Notes under the pieces: generated by a model
What the model was told of the DNA's origin: nothing
Databases searched by the model: none
What the model saw: the letters and a program-made list of their open reading frames with translations, nothing else
Virus record (IMG/VR): IMGVR_UViG_3300030117_004116
Span: 1-38,282 of that record
Direction: 5' to 3' (one strand)
Source: a virus
Length of the DNA stretch: 38,282 nucleotides
Position numbers and translations under genes: made by a program
In this document: positions 1 through 38,282 of the stretch, one piece after another
Position numbering within the stretch: the stretch's first letter is position 1
How the letters are laid out: each line of letters starts with the position of its first letter

Positions 1-489
1 GTACACTAAGAATACAGCAAATGCTGCTGATACTGGAGCAGAGTATGCTACGCAGATCCAAGGTCTCATACCTAATCTGTATGATAGTTCCCACTGTCTG
101 CCCATATAAGCAGAAATTCCAATTAGGAAGTGGAAAATTACAAGTTGGTAAGGACCACCATTATATAACCATTCGTCTACTGTTGCTGCTTCCCAAATTG
201 GGTAGAAGTGCAGACCTATAGCGTTTGAAGATGGAACTACAGCACCAGAGATGATGTTGTTACCATACATGAAAGAACCCGCTACTGGTTCTCTAATTCC
301 GTCTATATCGACAGGAGGTGCAGCAATAAAAGCTACAATAAAACATGCTGCTGCGGCGAGCAAACATGGAATCATGAGTACACCGAACCATCCAACGTAA
401 ATTCTGTTTTCGGTTGATGTCACCCACTCGCAGAACTCAGGCCAGCCTTTTAATAGACCACCTTGTCTGCTCCTTGAAAGAGTTGTCAT
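1..489 (-). CDS. psbA: Photosystem II D1 protein, N-terminal part (runs off the window)
   Basis: The ORF starts at 489 and stays open to the left edge, giving 163 residues. D1 is the PSII reaction-centre subunit that binds the primary electron donor, pheophytin and the Mn cluster. Landmark stretches are visible: [17 protein letters not shown] (first membrane helix), [35 protein letters not shown] and [17 protein letters not shown]. The N-terminus ([11 protein letters not shown]) resembles Prochlorococcus D1. Aligned with host D1, the GRQWELSY segment puts Gln at the position equivalent to 130, and the last residue in the window is the tyrosine of FLVY, equivalent to the redox-active Tyr161. 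Phage psbA keeps PSII repaired during infection. No obvious Shine-Dalgarno precedes the ATG. The leader is about 150 nt with a late promoter. Whether an intron or homing endonuclease follows cannot be seen. Confidence 0.97.
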
Positions 490-536
490 GAGGACGATTT
501 AATAGTAGGGCTCAAAGGGTAGAGCGAAACTATATT

Positions 537-560
537 TCCACCAATCCCTTCACTGGTGGA
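537..560 (-). other. Stem-loop in the psbA 5' leader
   Basis: TCCACCA and TGGTGGA form a perfect 7-bp stem around a 10-nt loop, about 50-70 nt upstream of the psbA start codon. It has no T-run, so it is not a terminator. With the hairpin at 616-633 it makes the leader highly structured. Confidence 0.5.
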
Positions 561-610
561 TATGAAAGACGTAATTTATCCTCCCATAGGTCTTGGTTAG
601 CGGGAGCATG

Positions 611-633
611 AAAAAGGTGAGGATTTCCTCACC
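611..633 (-). terminator. Hairpin plus T-run between the glycine-rich gene and psbA
   Basis: On the minus strand GGTGAGGA-AA-TCCTCACC (perfect 8-bp stem, 616-633) is followed by TTTTT (611-615), the form of a Rho-independent terminator for the virion gene ending at 680. It also lies only about 9 nt downstream of the TATAAATA box at 643-650, so it would sit at the very 5' end of a psbA late transcript. It may act as terminator, 5' stabilising hairpin, or both. Confidence 0.75.
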
Positions 634-679: not shown

Positions 680-1639
680 TTATACTGGGTATCTAATAAT
701 TACGATTCCACTACCACCTTTACCACCATAGTATCCAGCTGCTGAAAGACCACTTGTAGAGTGGGTTACACCTCCACCACCAGATCCACTATTTGCTACA
801 CCATCTAAAGTTCCAGTTGAACCTGAGTTGTTTGTATCACCACCTATACCATTCTTTCTGCCTGCAGCATTGAAAATAGAGTTTTCATTACCACCAGCAC
901 CACCAGCAGCATAGAATGTAGCAGTACCACTTATTGAATATTCTAACCCATCTCCACCACGACCACCTAGTTGATTACCTCTTTGATCACCAGCTTCACC
1001 AGCAGTACCAGCACCACCGCCGCCACCTCCAGCATTATCAGCACCAGCACCACCATTATTACCCTGCTTAGCGTTTCCTACATTACCACCTAAGTTACCA
1101 CCACCGATGCCACCAGCTGTGTTTTCCATTGCAGCACCACCACCAGATCCACCATTAGCACCATCATAATTACCACCATTACCAGTACCACCTCTACCAC
1201 CACCTGTTACAGATTCGTTAAAACTAGGCCCATTAATTTGACTACTACTACCACTTGCTGCAACTTGGTTAACTGCTGGAGATCCATTACCTCCAGCACC
1301 AACTGTAACTACATAAGTTCCAGCACCCCATGATTGATTTCCGCCATTCGGAGTTGTTCTATTAGTGGGAGTTTCAGTGCCATAGTAAGCAAGACCTCCA
1401 GCACCTCCTCCACCAGAGTTGTCACCTCCTCCACCACCGCCACCAGCGACCATGAGAAGTTGCAGACCTGTAACTGCTCTACTGAGAACAAAGTTAGTAT
1501 TACCAGTTGAAGTAAATGTATGTACACGATAAAGCACTCCACCAGATGTGACCTGAGTTTCAGTGCCGCCTTCTCCAGCAGGACCGATAATTGCTCTGGC
1601 TGTTAATGAAGTAGTTGTAGAAATAATATTAAGTGCCAT
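680..1639 (-). CDS. Glycine-rich tail adhesin-like protein
   Basis: 319 aa. An N-terminal non-repetitive part of about 50 residues is followed by a very long glycine-rich body with many runs of GGGG and GGAGG, Asn-rich loops and few charged residues. It ends in GSGIVIIRYPV, a closing motif I associate with phage and environmental glycine-rich domains (Gly_rich_2-like). Such polyglycine sandwich domains form receptor-binding tips of tail fibres, for example T4-like gp38 adhesins, so a host-recognition role at the fibre tip is inferred. It is the last gene of the structural block before psbA. It starts 5 nt after the stop of the preceding fibre-like gene and has no promoter of its own. The exact receptor cannot be read. 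Confidence 0.75.
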   Translation of the reverse strand: MALNIISTTTSLTARAIIGPAGEGGTETQVTSGGVLYRVHTFTSTGNTNFVLSRAVTGLQLLMVAGGGGGGGDNSGGGGAGGLAYYGTETPTNRTTPNGGNQSWGAGTYVVTVGAGGNGSPAVNQVAASGSSSQINGPSFNESVTGGGRGGTGNGGNYDGANGGSGGGAAMENTAGGIGGGNLGGNVGNAKQGNNGGAGADNAGGGGGGAGTAGEAGDQRGNQLGGRGGDGLEYSISGTATFYAAGGAGGNENSIFNAAGRKNGIGGDTNNSGSTGTLDGVANSGSGGGGVTHSTSGLSAAGYYGGKGGSGIVIIRYPV

Positions 1640-17072: not shown

Positions 17073-18893
17073 TTAATTATCTTGTACTGTACTGTTTTCT
17101 AAATTTGATGTCTCACTAGTTATCATAGAATTGATGTTGGTATTATTTTGATAAACATCTCCACCATTTATTATCATAGCAGTTTCACCATTACCATTAC
17201 CAATTTTGTTTTCTAGTATTTGATTTTCACTTCCATTTTTTAAATCATTAGTTCGATCAAAAACTAAATTAGTACCATTAAATTTTGGTGGATCTGAATG
17301 ATGAAATAAAAGTTCATCTCCGTCATAATGTTTTACTGCTGTTGTACCATTAAGACCTCTATTTACATGTAGTCTTAAAATGTTGTATTTAGCAGTTTTA
17401 CTACCCTCTTCTCTCATTTCAGCTTTAATCACTTTCATTAACTCATCTTTAATTGAAACAAAATCTCCTGCTTTAATCTTGTTTATTTGATATCCTCGAA
17501 TATCGAAGTAAGTATCATCTGCTTCTATATGATCATATTCTATCACTATATTTTTTGTTTCAAGTTGTCTTTTCTGGAGTTGCCATTTTCTCATCTCAGT
17601 GGCTACTGCTTCTCTTAAACCCTCTTCATCACCTTCATACTTTTTCGCTAAATCTTTTATGAGTTGTGCTCTTTTCTTTTCATATGCATCTGGAGGTAAA
17701 GCTTTTCTATCTGGATTTGTTAGAAATGCTAGTAATCTAGCACTTAAAAATTCACCGATCAAACCACCGATAAATCCACCAAGAAGTGTTCCGATGCCAG
17801 GAAGAAGCAATGTACCTATACCAGCACCTATCCATTGACCTAAACCAAAACCTAAAGCTTTAACAACTGCTGCATCCCAATCATCACCAAAAGCTCTGTT
17901 GATAGCTATGCTAAGAAAAGGACCTACAAGAGGAACATTTTTAATAGCAGATTTAAAAGGTTTTGCTAAAACTTTCAATACTTTAGAAACTTGTTTACCA
18001 ATTGTTCCTTTGTTATTTTTAGCTAAAAGTAATAATCTTTTTGCAATTGCTGTTATGACATTGTTACCCTTTAAAAAATTAGTTCCCTTTATGGTAATCT
18101 TTTTTAAAATTTGCGAGAGTAATTCTTTTGTTTTAGGAAATTGAAATACTTTGGTAAATTTTAATTTAATTGCACTTATTACTTTTGCAGTTTTTGGAAA
18201 CATAAACCTCAAACCTCTTCCAAGTCCTTGTCTCTGCCACTTTGTAAAAAATATTTTTAATTTTCTAAAATTTCTAGGACCACTTTTAATTAATTTAAAT
18301 GCATCCTTAACTGCCTTTAATGGATTCAATGTATAGTATATTCCAATAGCACCAACTGACATCTGGAAAAATCCTACAAATCTTTCTAGTAAAGTAGAAT
18401 CTTCTTTAACCATTTTGTAAAATCCAGTAAAGAAGTTATCAACAGATCCAGTAACAAACCAATCAATAAATTTAAGAACTGATTTTAAACCTGATACTAT
18501 TCCTTCTAATGTAGATTGATTTGCTGGATTAGCAATCCAATTTAATGCAAGGAAACCTAAAAGATCTCCTATAGCACCAAACAAATTACCTCCTAACTTT
18601 GCAGCACTTTGCTTTATACCACTACCAACTCCACTTAAGAAAGAAGTTTGTTCTTGTTTATCCTCTTCATTTCTTGATTTTTCTTTTCTCTTTTGTCTAT
18701 CAATTAATCTAAAATATTTTGCTTCTAATTTATCTCTTTGTCTTCTCTTTCTCATTAAAAGAAGAGCAGATCTTCTCATCGATCTACCAGCATCTACAGA
18801 TTTTTCTGTAACAGTTTCACCACTCATGAGTGGTTTACTTAGAGCAGAGGATTGATTTCCTTTATAGAGAGTAATAGCAGATGTAATTGCCAT
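17073..18893 (-). CDS. Tape-measure-like tail protein (second of two)
   Basis: 606 aa, lysine-rich. It has an N-terminal coiled-coil stretch (RRSALLLMRKRRQRDKLEAK), then amphipathic and hydrophobic helices, with glycine-rich membrane-like segments at about 340-400 (ALGFGLGQWIGAGIGTLLLP, IGTLLGGFIGGLIGEFLSAR). The segment LFGAIGDLLGFLALNWIANP is the counterpart of FDFLMQFGKVFVGFKLLEWL in the upstream gene, so the two appear to be paralogues. It is probably inside the tail tube and ejected with DNA, acting as tape measure or internal hub protein (the T4 gp29 position). Its start overlaps the upstream stop as TAATG. Confidence 0.6.
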   Translation of the reverse strand: MAITSAITLYKGNQSSALSKPLMSGETVTEKSVDAGRSMRRSALLLMRKRRQRDKLEAKYFRLIDRQKRKEKSRNEEDKQEQTSFLSGVGSGIKQSAAKLGGNLFGAIGDLLGFLALNWIANPANQSTLEGIVSGLKSVLKFIDWFVTGSVDNFFTGFYKMVKEDSTLLERFVGFFQMSVGAIGIYYTLNPLKAVKDAFKLIKSGPRNFRKLKIFFTKWQRQGLGRGLRFMFPKTAKVISAIKLKFTKVFQFPKTKELLSQILKKITIKGTNFLKGNNVITAIAKRLLLLAKNNKGTIGKQVSKVLKVLAKPFKSAIKNVPLVGPFLSIAINRAFGDDWDAAVVKALGFGLGQWIGAGIGTLLLPGIGTLLGGFIGGLIGEFLSARLLAFLTNPDRKALPPDAYEKKRAQLIKDLAKKYEGDEEGLREAVATEMRKWQLQKRQLETKNIVIEYDHIEADDTYFDIRGYQINKIKAGDFVSIKDELMKVIKAEMREEGSKTAKYNILRLHVNRGLNGTTAVKHYDGDELLFHHSDPPKFNGTNLVFDRTNDLKNGSENQILENKIGNGNGETAMIINGGDVYQNNTNINSMITSETSNLENSTVQDN

Positions 18894-20500
18894 TAGTATC
18901 TAACTCCATAAAGACATTGGTTTATTGGTGGTTCACAATTACCTAAAGAATCACTATCAAAAGCAGTCTGTTCTGCATTGGAAGTGAAGTGTGATCCTTG
19001 TTCATGGATAACAACTTTTCCATCACCACCTCCCATTAAAATATTATTACTTACAATTTGAGCAACAGATAGTCTAGTGCCAGTTTCATTTGCCAAACTT
19101 GGAACTACAAGACCTCCCATCTCAAATTTTGGAGCAACTGTAACTTGTGGTTGCGAAGTAATATTTTTAATAAGATTTCCAGAATTAAATGTTGGTGCAA
19201 CGAAACCTCCAGTTTTGTAAGATGGTCTGGGTAGAGAAGGAACACCACCACCTCCTCTAGCAGGAAAAGCACCAAAGTTCATAGAGTCAAGAAAACCTGG
19301 CATAGTTCTTTCAATACCAGCAGTTGCATTTCTGTTTAAAACATACTCTCCGCCTTCAGCTTCAATTGGTACTCCACCGCCACTATGTCTAGGGCCACTT
19401 AAGAGTCCACCCTTCTCCATCTGCTCCGAATTGTTTTGATTACTATCATTATCAGAAAATAATTCTTTATCATCTACCTCAGATTCATCATCTGAGAATC
19501 CAAATAATTGTTTTACTTTAGTAAATACACCTGAGACTACTTGAGTAAAAAGTTCTGGTAAATCATTTGTAAGAAAATTAGTCAAAGGTGAAAAGAAATC
19601 AGATAGTTGTGTTCCTATTTCACTAAACATATTTGGCAAATCTTCTGTAAAAAAGAGATTTATATCTTCAAATAATTTTGGTATACCCTCAGTAAATATT
19701 TTTGTTATACTTTCAAAAGACTCTTGTATTCCTTCTACATCTAACCATTCAAAACTAAAGAACTCTCCAATTTTATTAATAGTATCTTTAACAATTTGTA
19801 CTCCCTCTTTTAATTTATCTACTGTCCAGTTAATTCCAGTACCAATTGCTTTTGCAACTTTACCAACAAACTCAATTACTCCCGAAAAGAAATTAACAAA
19901 GGTTGTAACTTTGACAAGATTTGCTGGATCTGATAACCATTCTAGTAACTTAAATCCTACAAATACTTTTCCAAATTGCATTAAGAAATCAAATATACCA
20001 CCAGCTTTCTTCTTAATACCTTTCATCAAACCACTATCTTTCTTTCTTCTACCTTTTACTTTACCTCTTTCTTGTTTCTTTTCTTCTGCTTCTGCTGCAT
20101 CCGTATCTATTTCTCTTGATGTTCCTAAAATTCTATCATGTAATCGATCAATTGCATTGTTCTCAAGAACCAATAACTTCTCCAGATATTGTGTTACTTT
20201 TGCTAAATGATCTGTTAGTTTTCCAGTTGCACCTCCACTATCTGATTCTCCAGCTGGTAATGCAAGTCTAGCAGCAGTAGGTGTTTTCTTTACTGATTGT
20301 GTACCTAATGTAAATCCTTTAAATCTTGCTTTTCTTTCTTCTGGTGAAAGATATTCACCCTTCTCACCAACTCCCATGACTCTTGCTTGATAGTCAGCAG
20401 AAGTCTTACCAGTCATACCCTTCATGAACTTTTGAAGGCCACCACTTTTATTCCCAATGTTATTCATGGATGATGCTGAATTTAGGAGACCTTTGATCAT
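18893..20500 (-). CDS. Tape-measure-like tail protein (first of two)
   Basis: 535 aa. It has a long helical N-terminal half with coiled coil (about 100-150), a basic linker (KGRRKKDSGLMKGIKKKAGG), hydrophobic helices at about 165-215 and many short amphipathic helices. At about 375-405 is the motif GGLLSGPRHSGGGVPIEAEG followed by GEYVLNR, characteristic of tape-measure C-termini in many tailed phages. The protein would set the tail length or occupy the tube lumen. It lies immediately downstream of gp51/gp26 (start overlaps the gp51 stop by 4 nt), the usual order of tail chaperone followed by tape measure. Confidence 0.7.
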   Translation of the reverse strand: MIKGLLNSASSMNNIGNKSGGLQKFMKGMTGKTSADYQARVMGVGEKGEYLSPEERKARFKGFTLGTQSVKKTPTAARLALPAGESDSGGATGKLTDHLAKVTQYLEKLLVLENNAIDRLHDRILGTSREIDTDAAEAEEKKQERGKVKGRRKKDSGLMKGIKKKAGGIFDFLMQFGKVFVGFKLLEWLSDPANLVKVTTFVNFFSGVIEFVGKVAKAIGTGINWTVDKLKEGVQIVKDTINKIGEFFSFEWLDVEGIQESFESITKIFTEGIPKLFEDINLFFTEDLPNMFSEIGTQLSDFFSPLTNFLTNDLPELFTQVVSGVFTKVKQLFGFSDDESEVDDKELFSDNDSNQNNSEQMEKGGLLSGPRHSGGGVPIEAEGGEYVLNRNATAGIERTMPGFLDSMNFGAFPARGGGGVPSLPRPSYKTGGFVAPTFNSGNLIKNITSQPQVTVAPKFEMGGLVVPSLANETGTRLSVAQIVSNNILMGGGDGKVVIHEQGSHFTSNAEQTAFDSDSLGNCEPPINQCLYGVRY

Positions 20501-20679
20501 TGTGACTGGCGGTTTTTAATTTTTTCGTTTTCCTCTTCTATGTAATCAACAAGTTGTTGTACATAAACTTCTCTTTCCCATGGCAACATATTCTCAAGTG
20601 TTTCAAGACTCCATTTATGGTGTTGAACCATTACAAAATTAGTTCGATAGTAATTCTCTAATGATTCATGGGCCAACAC
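20497..20679 (-). CDS. gp51: gp51-like baseplate hub assembly protein (probably made as frameshift fusion)
   Basis: 60 aa if started at the GTG at 20679, which overlaps the gp26 stop (TAGTG) and has no Shine-Dalgarno. Residues VMVQHHKWSLETLENMLPWE followed by REVYVQQLVDYIEEENEKIK follow the 'W.L..LE.M.PWER..Y...L' pattern of T4-like gp51 and of tail-assembly chaperone T-domains. The frame continues upstream into the end of gp26. A T_TTT_TTC heptamer at 20685-20691 would join the two by a -1 shift, giving a product of about 300 aa. The separate 60-aa protein may not be the main product. Confidence 0.7.
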   Translation of the reverse strand: MLAHESLENYYRTNFVMVQHHKWSLETLENMLPWEREVYVQQLVDYIEEENEKIKNRQSQ

Positions 20680-21398
20680 TAGTCGAAAAAACTTGAGAGA
20701 CCCTCAATTACTACTTCAGATTCAACATTTGTTTTTGGATTAAGAACTTTAATCGTATGACTTAGTTTAGGCATAGTCTCAAAGAAATCTTGTATCTTCT
20801 GAAATTGTTGTGTGTCAAATGTTTCTACAAACTCTAGCATTTCTTTCTTAGAGAAACTCTTTGCTTCTAGAACATCTTCTCCTTCAACAACTTGAGATAT
20901 ACAATCAATTGTCATGTCAAATATGGTATCAACTTTCTGTTGATTCTCACCTGTAATATTATTTTTCACAAACATTTCCATGCTTGGATACTTCATAACA
21001 ATTCCAACTTGATCAGTGAGTTGAATTACTGGATCATGTTTGTCAGACTTTTGAATTTTGACATTTTCAACATTGACAGCAACTTCAACTTCTGTTACTT
21101 CATCATCAGGACATACAACATTCAATTTTATCTCTTCACCTACAGATTTACCTCTGATATTTAGGAAAAGATATTCAATATCAAATACAGCAAGTTTGTC
21201 TACACTAATACCTCTAGTAAGAATACAATTCTTAAGGATTTGTTTGACAGCATTCTGCATTTCCTTCTCATCTTCTGACTCCATAGCGATAAGAAGTATT
21301 TTTTCTTCCTTCACAAGAAAAGGTCTATACTTAACTTTTCTATTGGAAGATGGTAATGTCAACTCATAGGTTGGCGTGTTTAACTTTGGTAATGGCAT
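20679..21398 (-). CDS. gp26: Baseplate hub subunit / tail chaperone gp26-like
   Basis: 239 aa. The sequence (YRPFLVKEEKILLIAMESED, then IEYLFLNIRGKSVGEEIKLN, DQVGIVMKYPSMEMF) is typical of the T4_baseplate family that includes gp26. It is a small, mainly helical assembly factor used during hub formation. The family is placed like the tail-assembly chaperones of other tailed phages: here it lies between a tube-family gene and the tape-measure genes, and its last codons contain a -1 slippery sequence leading into gp51. A late box (TATAAATA, 21423-21430) precedes it by 24 nt. Confidence 0.82.
   Translation of the reverse strand: MPLPKLNTPTYELTLPSSNRKVKYRPFLVKEEKILLIAMESEDEKEMQNAVKQILKNCILTRGISVDKLAVFDIEYLFLNIRGKSVGEEIKLNVVCPDDEVTEVEVAVNVENVKIQKSDKHDPVIQLTDQVGIVMKYPSMEMFVKNNITGENQQKVDTIFDMTIDCISQVVEGEDVLEAKSFSKKEMLEFVETFDTQQFQKIQDFFETMPKLSHTIKVLNPKTNVESEVVIEGLSSFFD
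20685..20691 (-). promoter_or_regulatory. Putative -1 programmed frameshift site (T_TTT_TTC)
   Basis: In gp26 the final codons read AGT TTT TTC GAC TAG. The heptamer T TTT TTC is in the correct zero frame for simultaneous slippage. After the shift the codons CGA CTA GTG TTG GCC lead directly into gp51. A weak pairing GTGTTG (20679-20674) with CAACAC (20625-20620) begins 5 nt after the site, but has a loop of nearly 50 nt. Confidence 0.7.
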
Positions 21399-21444: not shown

Positions 21445-22224
21445 TTATGCAAAAAGACCCTCTGTTGAGAACGGTTCGAGTGCTGATTCTCCGTCAGCAT
21501 CATCTTTTCTTCGAGTTCCAGTAGGTCTAATTGTCTCATATTCAAACTCAATTGATAGTTGAGTCATAGATGATGACTCATTACCTAGTGGTGTAGCGGA
21601 TATATTTGAAGGAAAAGCATTTATTATTTTAACAGCATGCACTGGAACTGACTTAAAGAAACCAGTTACACCACCGATCTTGTCAGGAATAATTTCCTTC
21701 GTCATCATTCTTTTTGACAATGCATTGAATCTTAGTTTGTTTAAATTCATAAGAGATGAATTAGCTTTTTCATATTTCAGTATAGTAATATCAGAAACAT
21801 AATCATCTTTGTACTTAGTTCTTAAAGTACCATTATCTCTTGCCCATCTAGAATATGGATAGATTGTGTCAGTCCATACATCAAATACTTGTCGAATCAA
21901 TGAACCAGAATCTAACATGAATGTCATGGAAAATGTATTGAATACTGTACCATAGGCATATTTTAACTGAGGTGTATTAGTAATTCGATACTCACTTGTA
22001 GACATATTTACGCCAGGCATCGTAGCTTCATTTGTATATAATTTCATTAGTTCCATCATCTGTCCTAGACCAGCACTACCATCAGCTAATCTAAACTTAC
22101 CTTGAAGCACCTCAAACAATTTACTACTACCACCAACATCTATCTGAACATCATAAAGGTTCGCCATACTGAAACCATAAGTTTGAAACTTAGATTTAAA
22201 TTCATTTAAGTTTGATAGTGTCAT
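21445..22224 (-). CDS. Tail tube-family protein (gp19/gp54-like)
   Basis: 259 aa. The pattern MPGVNMSTSEYRITNTPQLK, AYGTVFNTFSMTFMLDS, VFDVWTDTIYPYSRWARDNG and a late beta strand (MTQLSIEFEYETIRPTG) matches the tail-tube fold of T4 gp19 and the tube initiator gp54. Because gp48 (tube cap) and gp53 lie nearby, and a canonical gp19 would normally be next to the sheath gene gp18, a baseplate tube-initiator (gp54) role is the better guess. It overlaps the preceding 161-aa gene by 4 nt (ATGA). Confidence 0.65.
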   Translation of the reverse strand: MTLSNLNEFKSKFQTYGFSMANLYDVQIDVGGSSKLFEVLQGKFRLADGSAGLGQMMELMKLYTNEATMPGVNMSTSEYRITNTPQLKYAYGTVFNTFSMTFMLDSGSLIRQVFDVWTDTIYPYSRWARDNGTLRTKYKDDYVSDITILKYEKANSSLMNLNKLRFNALSKRMMTKEIIPDKIGGVTGFFKSVPVHAVKIINAFPSNISATPLGNESSSMTQLSIEFEYETIRPTGTRRKDDADGESALEPFSTEGLFA

Positions 22225-38189: not shown

Positions 38190-38272
38190 ACTACTCCTAG
38201 AAAATAAGAGGGAGGTTGGATTCCTGTGTACCAACAAATAACGGGCATTACTACAGTAAGTAAATACGTCAT
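38186..38272 (-). CDS. 28-aa hydrophobic peptide (possible)
   Basis: MTYLLTVVMPVICWYTGIQP then PSYFLGVV: one short membrane segment. Its stop overlaps the following start as ATGA. It lies at the window edge, so the promoter is out of view. Confidence 0.4.
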   Translation of the reverse strand: MTYLLTVVMPVICWYTGIQPPSYFLGVV

Positions 38273-38282
38273 TGCCTGAGAC

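Follow-up and report, generated by a model that had tools for sequence, protein, structure and literature searches.

Genes 26 and 51 of the viral fragment analysed here very probably form a single gene in which a -1 programmed ribosomal frameshift, predicted from sequence, would yield the short and the long tail assembly chaperone (TAC) of a T4-like cyanophage. The fragment is a linear IMG/VR record of 38 kb (IMGVR_UViG_3300030117_004116), and "the window" below is the whole stretch of it that was analysed, positions 1-38,282. In the mechanism that we propose, most ribosomes would stop at the gp26 TAG and release the short chaperone, TAC-N (239 aa). A minority would slip back one base on the heptamer T_TTT_TTC, with tRNA-Phe re-pairing in both the P and the A site and with pairing between an upstream GAGGG word and 16S rRNA helping the slip. 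The slipped ribosomes would then read on through gp51 to make the long chaperone, TAC-NC (300 aa). On the analogy of lambda gpG/gpGT, the tape measure protein would be coated by many short copies and few long ones, which would recruit tube subunits and then leave.

The source phage, a marine T4-like one, is probably a cyanophage, because a PhotoRC-II RNA motif (524-619, minus strand, Rfam 83 bits) lies directly upstream of a partial ORF (1-489, minus strand) which, recognised by eye, we take to be psbA-like (photosystem II D1).

The gp26-gp51 junction and its conservation

The zero-frame product of gp26 (20679..21398, minus strand) is 239 aa long and matches PF12322 (T4_baseplate, E = 2.6e-70) and phrog_150 (baseplate hub, E = 9.4e-78). 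The 3' end of the gene reads ...GAG GGT CTC TCA AGT TTT TTC GAC TAG. It contains the slippery heptamer T_TTT_TTC (20685..20691, minus strand), which has the X_XXY_YYZ form in the zero frame and is separated by one sense codon (GAC) from the TAG stop (20679..20681, minus strand). After a -1 slip the sequence is read as TTT TTT CGA CTA GTG TTG GCC CAT GAA; the -1 frame is open through the heptamer, no stop intervenes before gp51, and the predicted fusion product is 300 aa (238 + RL + 60). Both the in-frame heptamer and the slipped reading CGA CTA GTG TTG GCC had been reported in a preliminary description of this DNA, and both were confirmed.

The gp51 frame (20497..20679, minus strand), which would supply the C-terminal extension of TAC-NC, comprises 60 codons counted from a GTG, plus RL across the junction, and matches phrog_634 (baseplate hub assembly catalyst, E = 2.4e-26). 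It had also been described as lacking an ATG or ribosome site of its own, and this held on inspection: there is no in-frame ATG, the sole candidate start is the GTG, which overlaps the TAG by one base, and the nearest Shine-Dalgarno-like word (GAGGG) is 21 nt from it, which is far for initiation. No second PF12322 gene, as in the T4-like state, was found in the 38 kb linear fragment; the single match rejects a two-PF12322-gene arrangement for this record, which covers only part of the phage and does not prove absence from the whole.

Upstream of gp26 is a tail-tube-like gene (21445..22224, minus strand; PF23849, E = 7.4e-14; phrog_45, E = 3.2e-31) in the position of lambda V. Downstream, with its ATG overlapping the gp51 stop, is a tape-measure-like ORF of 535 aa (18893..20500, minus strand) in the position of lambda H. 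The locus thus fits that of a lambda-type TAC, between tail tube and tape measure genes, with the tape measure assignment drawn from several weak matches to tape measure phrogs (best E = 5.4e-7). The arrangement had been called identical to lambda V-G-T-H, a statement that stands for gene order and not for orthology, given the weakness of the downstream matches. Stronger matches of the 535 aa ORF are to the "endolysin"-labelled phrogs 790 and 1200, which rank above the tape measure phrogs. A second downstream ORF of 606 aa (17073..18893, minus strand), a large tail protein, matches phrog_1200 (E = 8.5e-19) and, weakly, tape measure phrogs. Each of the two ORFs (17073-20500, minus strand) matches pieces of long phrog families that are labelled "endolysin" and, weakly, tape measure; together they may be the counterpart of the single long ORF that follows gp51 in P-SSM4.

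To place the junction among its relatives, protein searches of IMG/VR and of annotated phages were used to assemble 197 non-T4-type gp26 loci, the window among them. Loss of the heptamer or of the overlap in related phages had been named in the preliminary description as evidence against frameshifting; an in-frame T_TTT_TTN was found near the gp26 end in 195 of the 197 loci. Its last codon is TTC in 158 loci, TTT in 36 and TTG in one, and the codon before it is of seven kinds (AGT, GAT, AAT, TCT, GCT, ACT and CAT), every one ending in T. The -1 frame is open in 195/195, leading through the heptamer into the conserved coding sequence of gp51 (phrog_634) and extending at least 52 codons beyond the stop where the contig allows. 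The heptamer is missing from two loci with identical junctions, one in Vibrio phage VP-1 and the other in an IMG/VR record nearly identical to it. Further loci that had appeared heptamer-less in a first pass (L142, L168, L187, L188, L190 and L202) were found to have the heptamer, with the stop 8 codons further on.

This conservation is not due to chance. Given the codon usage of each locus, all 62 protein clusters would have TTT as the first Phe codon, preceded by an NNT codon, with a probability of about 10^-31, a figure to be read with the clusters being not fully independent. Locus counts include related sequences as separate, and p-values based on them therefore overstate independence; counting by cluster is more conservative. 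Among 83 closer relatives aligned by codon, no columns of gp26 other than the two Phe codons had zero synonymous heterogeneity, and a control Phe-Phe pair elsewhere in the same genes formed the heptamer in just 6 of 123 cases, demonstrating selection on the site beyond amino-acid coding.

The two genes of T4 and the chaperone reading

Phage T4 encodes gp26 (208 aa) and gp51 (249 aa) as two divergent genes. T4 gp26 matches PF12322 alone and corresponds to the short form, while T4 gp51 matches the whole of PF12322 and then continues into the gp51 tail, making it a natural fusion. The end of T4 gp26 reads GAG TTC TTT GAG, in which TTC TTT replaces TTT TTC and the heptamer is absent. The fused gp51 and the heptamer-less gp26 of T4 provide independent support for the frameshift reading. 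The predicted fusion combines the PF12322 domain with the gp51 tail, as T4-like TACs do, and a profile comparison with T4-type gp51 gave a probability of 94.3 and E = 1e-7. At the level of sequence, a short form and a long fusion form are available in both systems, which differ in that T4 has two divergent genes without the heptamer whereas the window has one gene with an overlapping -1 frame. In a maximum-likelihood tree, three changes suffice to separate the frameshift loci, short gp26, long gp51 and Ackermannviridae. The tree is compatible with a duplication within the T4 lineage, but does not prove it, because it has some long branches and its root is not fixed.

That the gp26/gp51 pair would work like lambda G/GT is well supported as an analogy. 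The -1 frameshift, predicted here, falls close to where the first frame ends in both loci, would give short and long isoforms in both, and lies between a tube gene and tape-measure-like genes. They differ in the site, here T_TTT_TTC, and in the N-terminal domain, which is much longer here (239 aa); no sequence or significant structural homology was seen. AlphaFold modelled gp26 with confidence (pLDDT 89), and a Foldseek search with the model returned no significant match to known TACs, the HK97 TAC 2OB9 appearing at rank 4 with a non-significant E of 2.2 and probability of 0.38. A fold search with a T4-type gp51 model likewise found no known TAC, and matches in a viral structure library were mainly to T4-like baseplate hub proteins and unnamed proteins. 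The suggestion that gp26 and gp51 are lambda G/GT-type chaperones is accordingly upheld as an analogy, by the conserved heptamer and the T4 fusion; homology to lambda G/GT is not shown.

The frameshift could also be real and its products, gp26 and the fusion, be structural parts of the hub or baseplate rather than transient chaperones, a reading that we consider unlikely. It agrees with the baseplate hub annotation, with genetics that put gp26 in the T4 hub (PMC3004832), and with the annotation of LIMEstone1 gp26 as a confirmed structural protein, unlike lambda gpG. However, T4 gp51 is required for assembly yet absent from the virion, and gp26 and gp51 of T4 are both tabulated as hub assembly chaperones (PMC3004832). 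The gene order beside tube and tape-measure-like genes also favors transient chaperones, as does the identification of T4-like TACs by Vladimirov, Gautam & Davidson (2022), as that work is cited elsewhere (PMC10885494, PMC12846349).

The Shine-Dalgarno-like element and the route into gp51

The Shine-Dalgarno-like word GAGGG (20701..20705, minus strand) is a candidate stimulator of -1 frameshifting and ends 9 nt upstream of the heptamer. Such a word is present in 163 loci and ends 8-10 nt before the heptamer in 151 of them, close to the spacing of 9-14 nt reported for -1 frameshift stimulators of this type (PMC5009743). In 118/136 loci the word's Glu codon is GAG, compared with 854/2903 (29%) of the other Glu codons of the same genes and 18/88 at other Glu-Gly pairs. 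When codons were reshuffled synonymously the effect was more modest than this GAG bias, with the word observed in 141/195 loci against 92.8 expected.

No conserved 3' stimulatory structure was found, RNAalifold predicting no pairs on 18 sequences. The window's own fold has a z of -2.86, but its main stem starts about 20 nt downstream of the heptamer. The arrangement resembles the -1 frameshift of E. coli dnaX in its slippery heptamer and in having, at a similar spacing upstream, a Shine-Dalgarno element, a stimulator in dnaX and a candidate one here (PMC5009743), but dnaX slips on A_AAA_AAG and has a 3' stem-loop. A second likeness is to the TAC locus of Vandenendeviridae/Andersonviridae (Pseudomonas phage Adele, PMC12846349), which also has a conserved poly-T slip near the TAC-N end and an open -1 frame, although its motif is GTTTTT and it belongs to a different phage group.

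A Shine-Dalgarno word near a gene end can also serve translational coupling (PMC5009743), whereby termination at the TAG would be followed by reinitiation at the overlapping GTG, giving a separate 60 aa gp51 and no fusion. The TAGTG overlap in the window would suit such coupling, as would the presence, in 121/195 loci, of a codon that could serve as a start no more than 8 codons from the slip, and the TAATG-type overlaps of some Ackermannviridae relatives. We nevertheless judge it quite improbable. The remaining 74/195 loci have no ATG, GTG or TTG within 8 codons, and independent initiation of full gp51 is therefore unlikely there, while in the window the Shine-Dalgarno-like word is 9 nt from the heptamer but as far as 21 nt from the GTG. 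Neither T_TTT_TTN nor a -1 frame that is open before the stop is required for coupling, yet both are kept in 195/195 loci, and T4 has the fused protein. Transcriptional slippage, in which the run of 6-8 T would add a base to some mRNAs that are then read straight into gp51, is very improbable, since 159/195 runs are of just 6 T against the 9 A or T named for bacteria in a review, the phase is always NNT TTT TTN and never the equally suitable V TTT TTT, and it has no call for a Shine-Dalgarno-like element at 8-10 nt.

Earlier descriptions and the annotation of gp51

TACs of T4-like phages were identified by Vladimirov, Gautam & Davidson (2022; Virology 566:9-15), according to two papers that cite them (PMC10885494, PMC12846349). 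As far as that study is represented there, it proposed a mechanism other than frameshifting, with PRFect (PMC10885494) citing it for the two-gene state, and it is cited in the Adele paper (PMC12846349) for poly-T slippery sites in T4-like TAC-N genes. The reading of gp26/gp51 as a frameshifted T4-like chaperone gene is thus real, well supported and largely already known, a solid new example and not a new phenomenon, and its novelty is limited because the basic claim is already published. Our analysis adds scale, a codon-level test, the Shine-Dalgarno-like element, the case of Aeh1 and the exception seen in Ackermannviridae, though Vladimirov et al. (2022) may already contain any of these.

In 2010, cyanophage gp51 was described as about 20% of normal length, and gp51 as missing only in Aeh1 (PMC3037559). 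Aeromonas phage Aeh1 (locus L219) has an unannotated gp51-like -1 frame after T_TTT_TTC, and unannotated frameshifting would thus account for both the short cyanophage gp51 and the "missing" gp51 of Aeh1. The N-terminus absent from cyanophage gp51, which is about 80% shorter than that of T4, would be gp26, added by the frameshift; the apparent absence of gp51 from some genomes would be explained likewise. Many of the public records examined annotate gp51 as separate, truncated or absent, and a wide correction of annotation would therefore follow in a group of viruses that is abundant in the ocean.

Five Ackermannviridae-type relatives (VP-1, Kuja, K362, LIMEstone1 and KpS110; loci L092 and L215-L218) keep the -1 relation between the two frames and have no T_TTT_TTN. 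Some relatives of this type have TAATG-type overlaps, and at the Kuja locus the heptamer is absent and the overlap offers no obvious start codon. Coupling, or a weaker slip in the P site, may operate in these phages.

We give roughly even chances to a broader account of these observations. In it, a selected Shine-Dalgarno-like 5' stimulator at 8-10 nt would replace a 3' structure, frameshifting would explain the "truncated" gp51 of cyanophages and vibriophages as well as the "missing" gp51 of Aeh1, and the locus would occur in three states: frameshift, two paralogous genes of the T4 type, and the heptamer-less overlap of Ackermannviridae. A natural experiment is offered by related lineages, in which the two proteins would come from a frameshift in some and from two genes in others.

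Elsewhere in the window, the psbA-like ORF is adjoined by a glycine-rich ORF of 319 aa (680-1639, minus strand), and a manA RNA motif (38205-38282, minus strand) is cut by the contig end.
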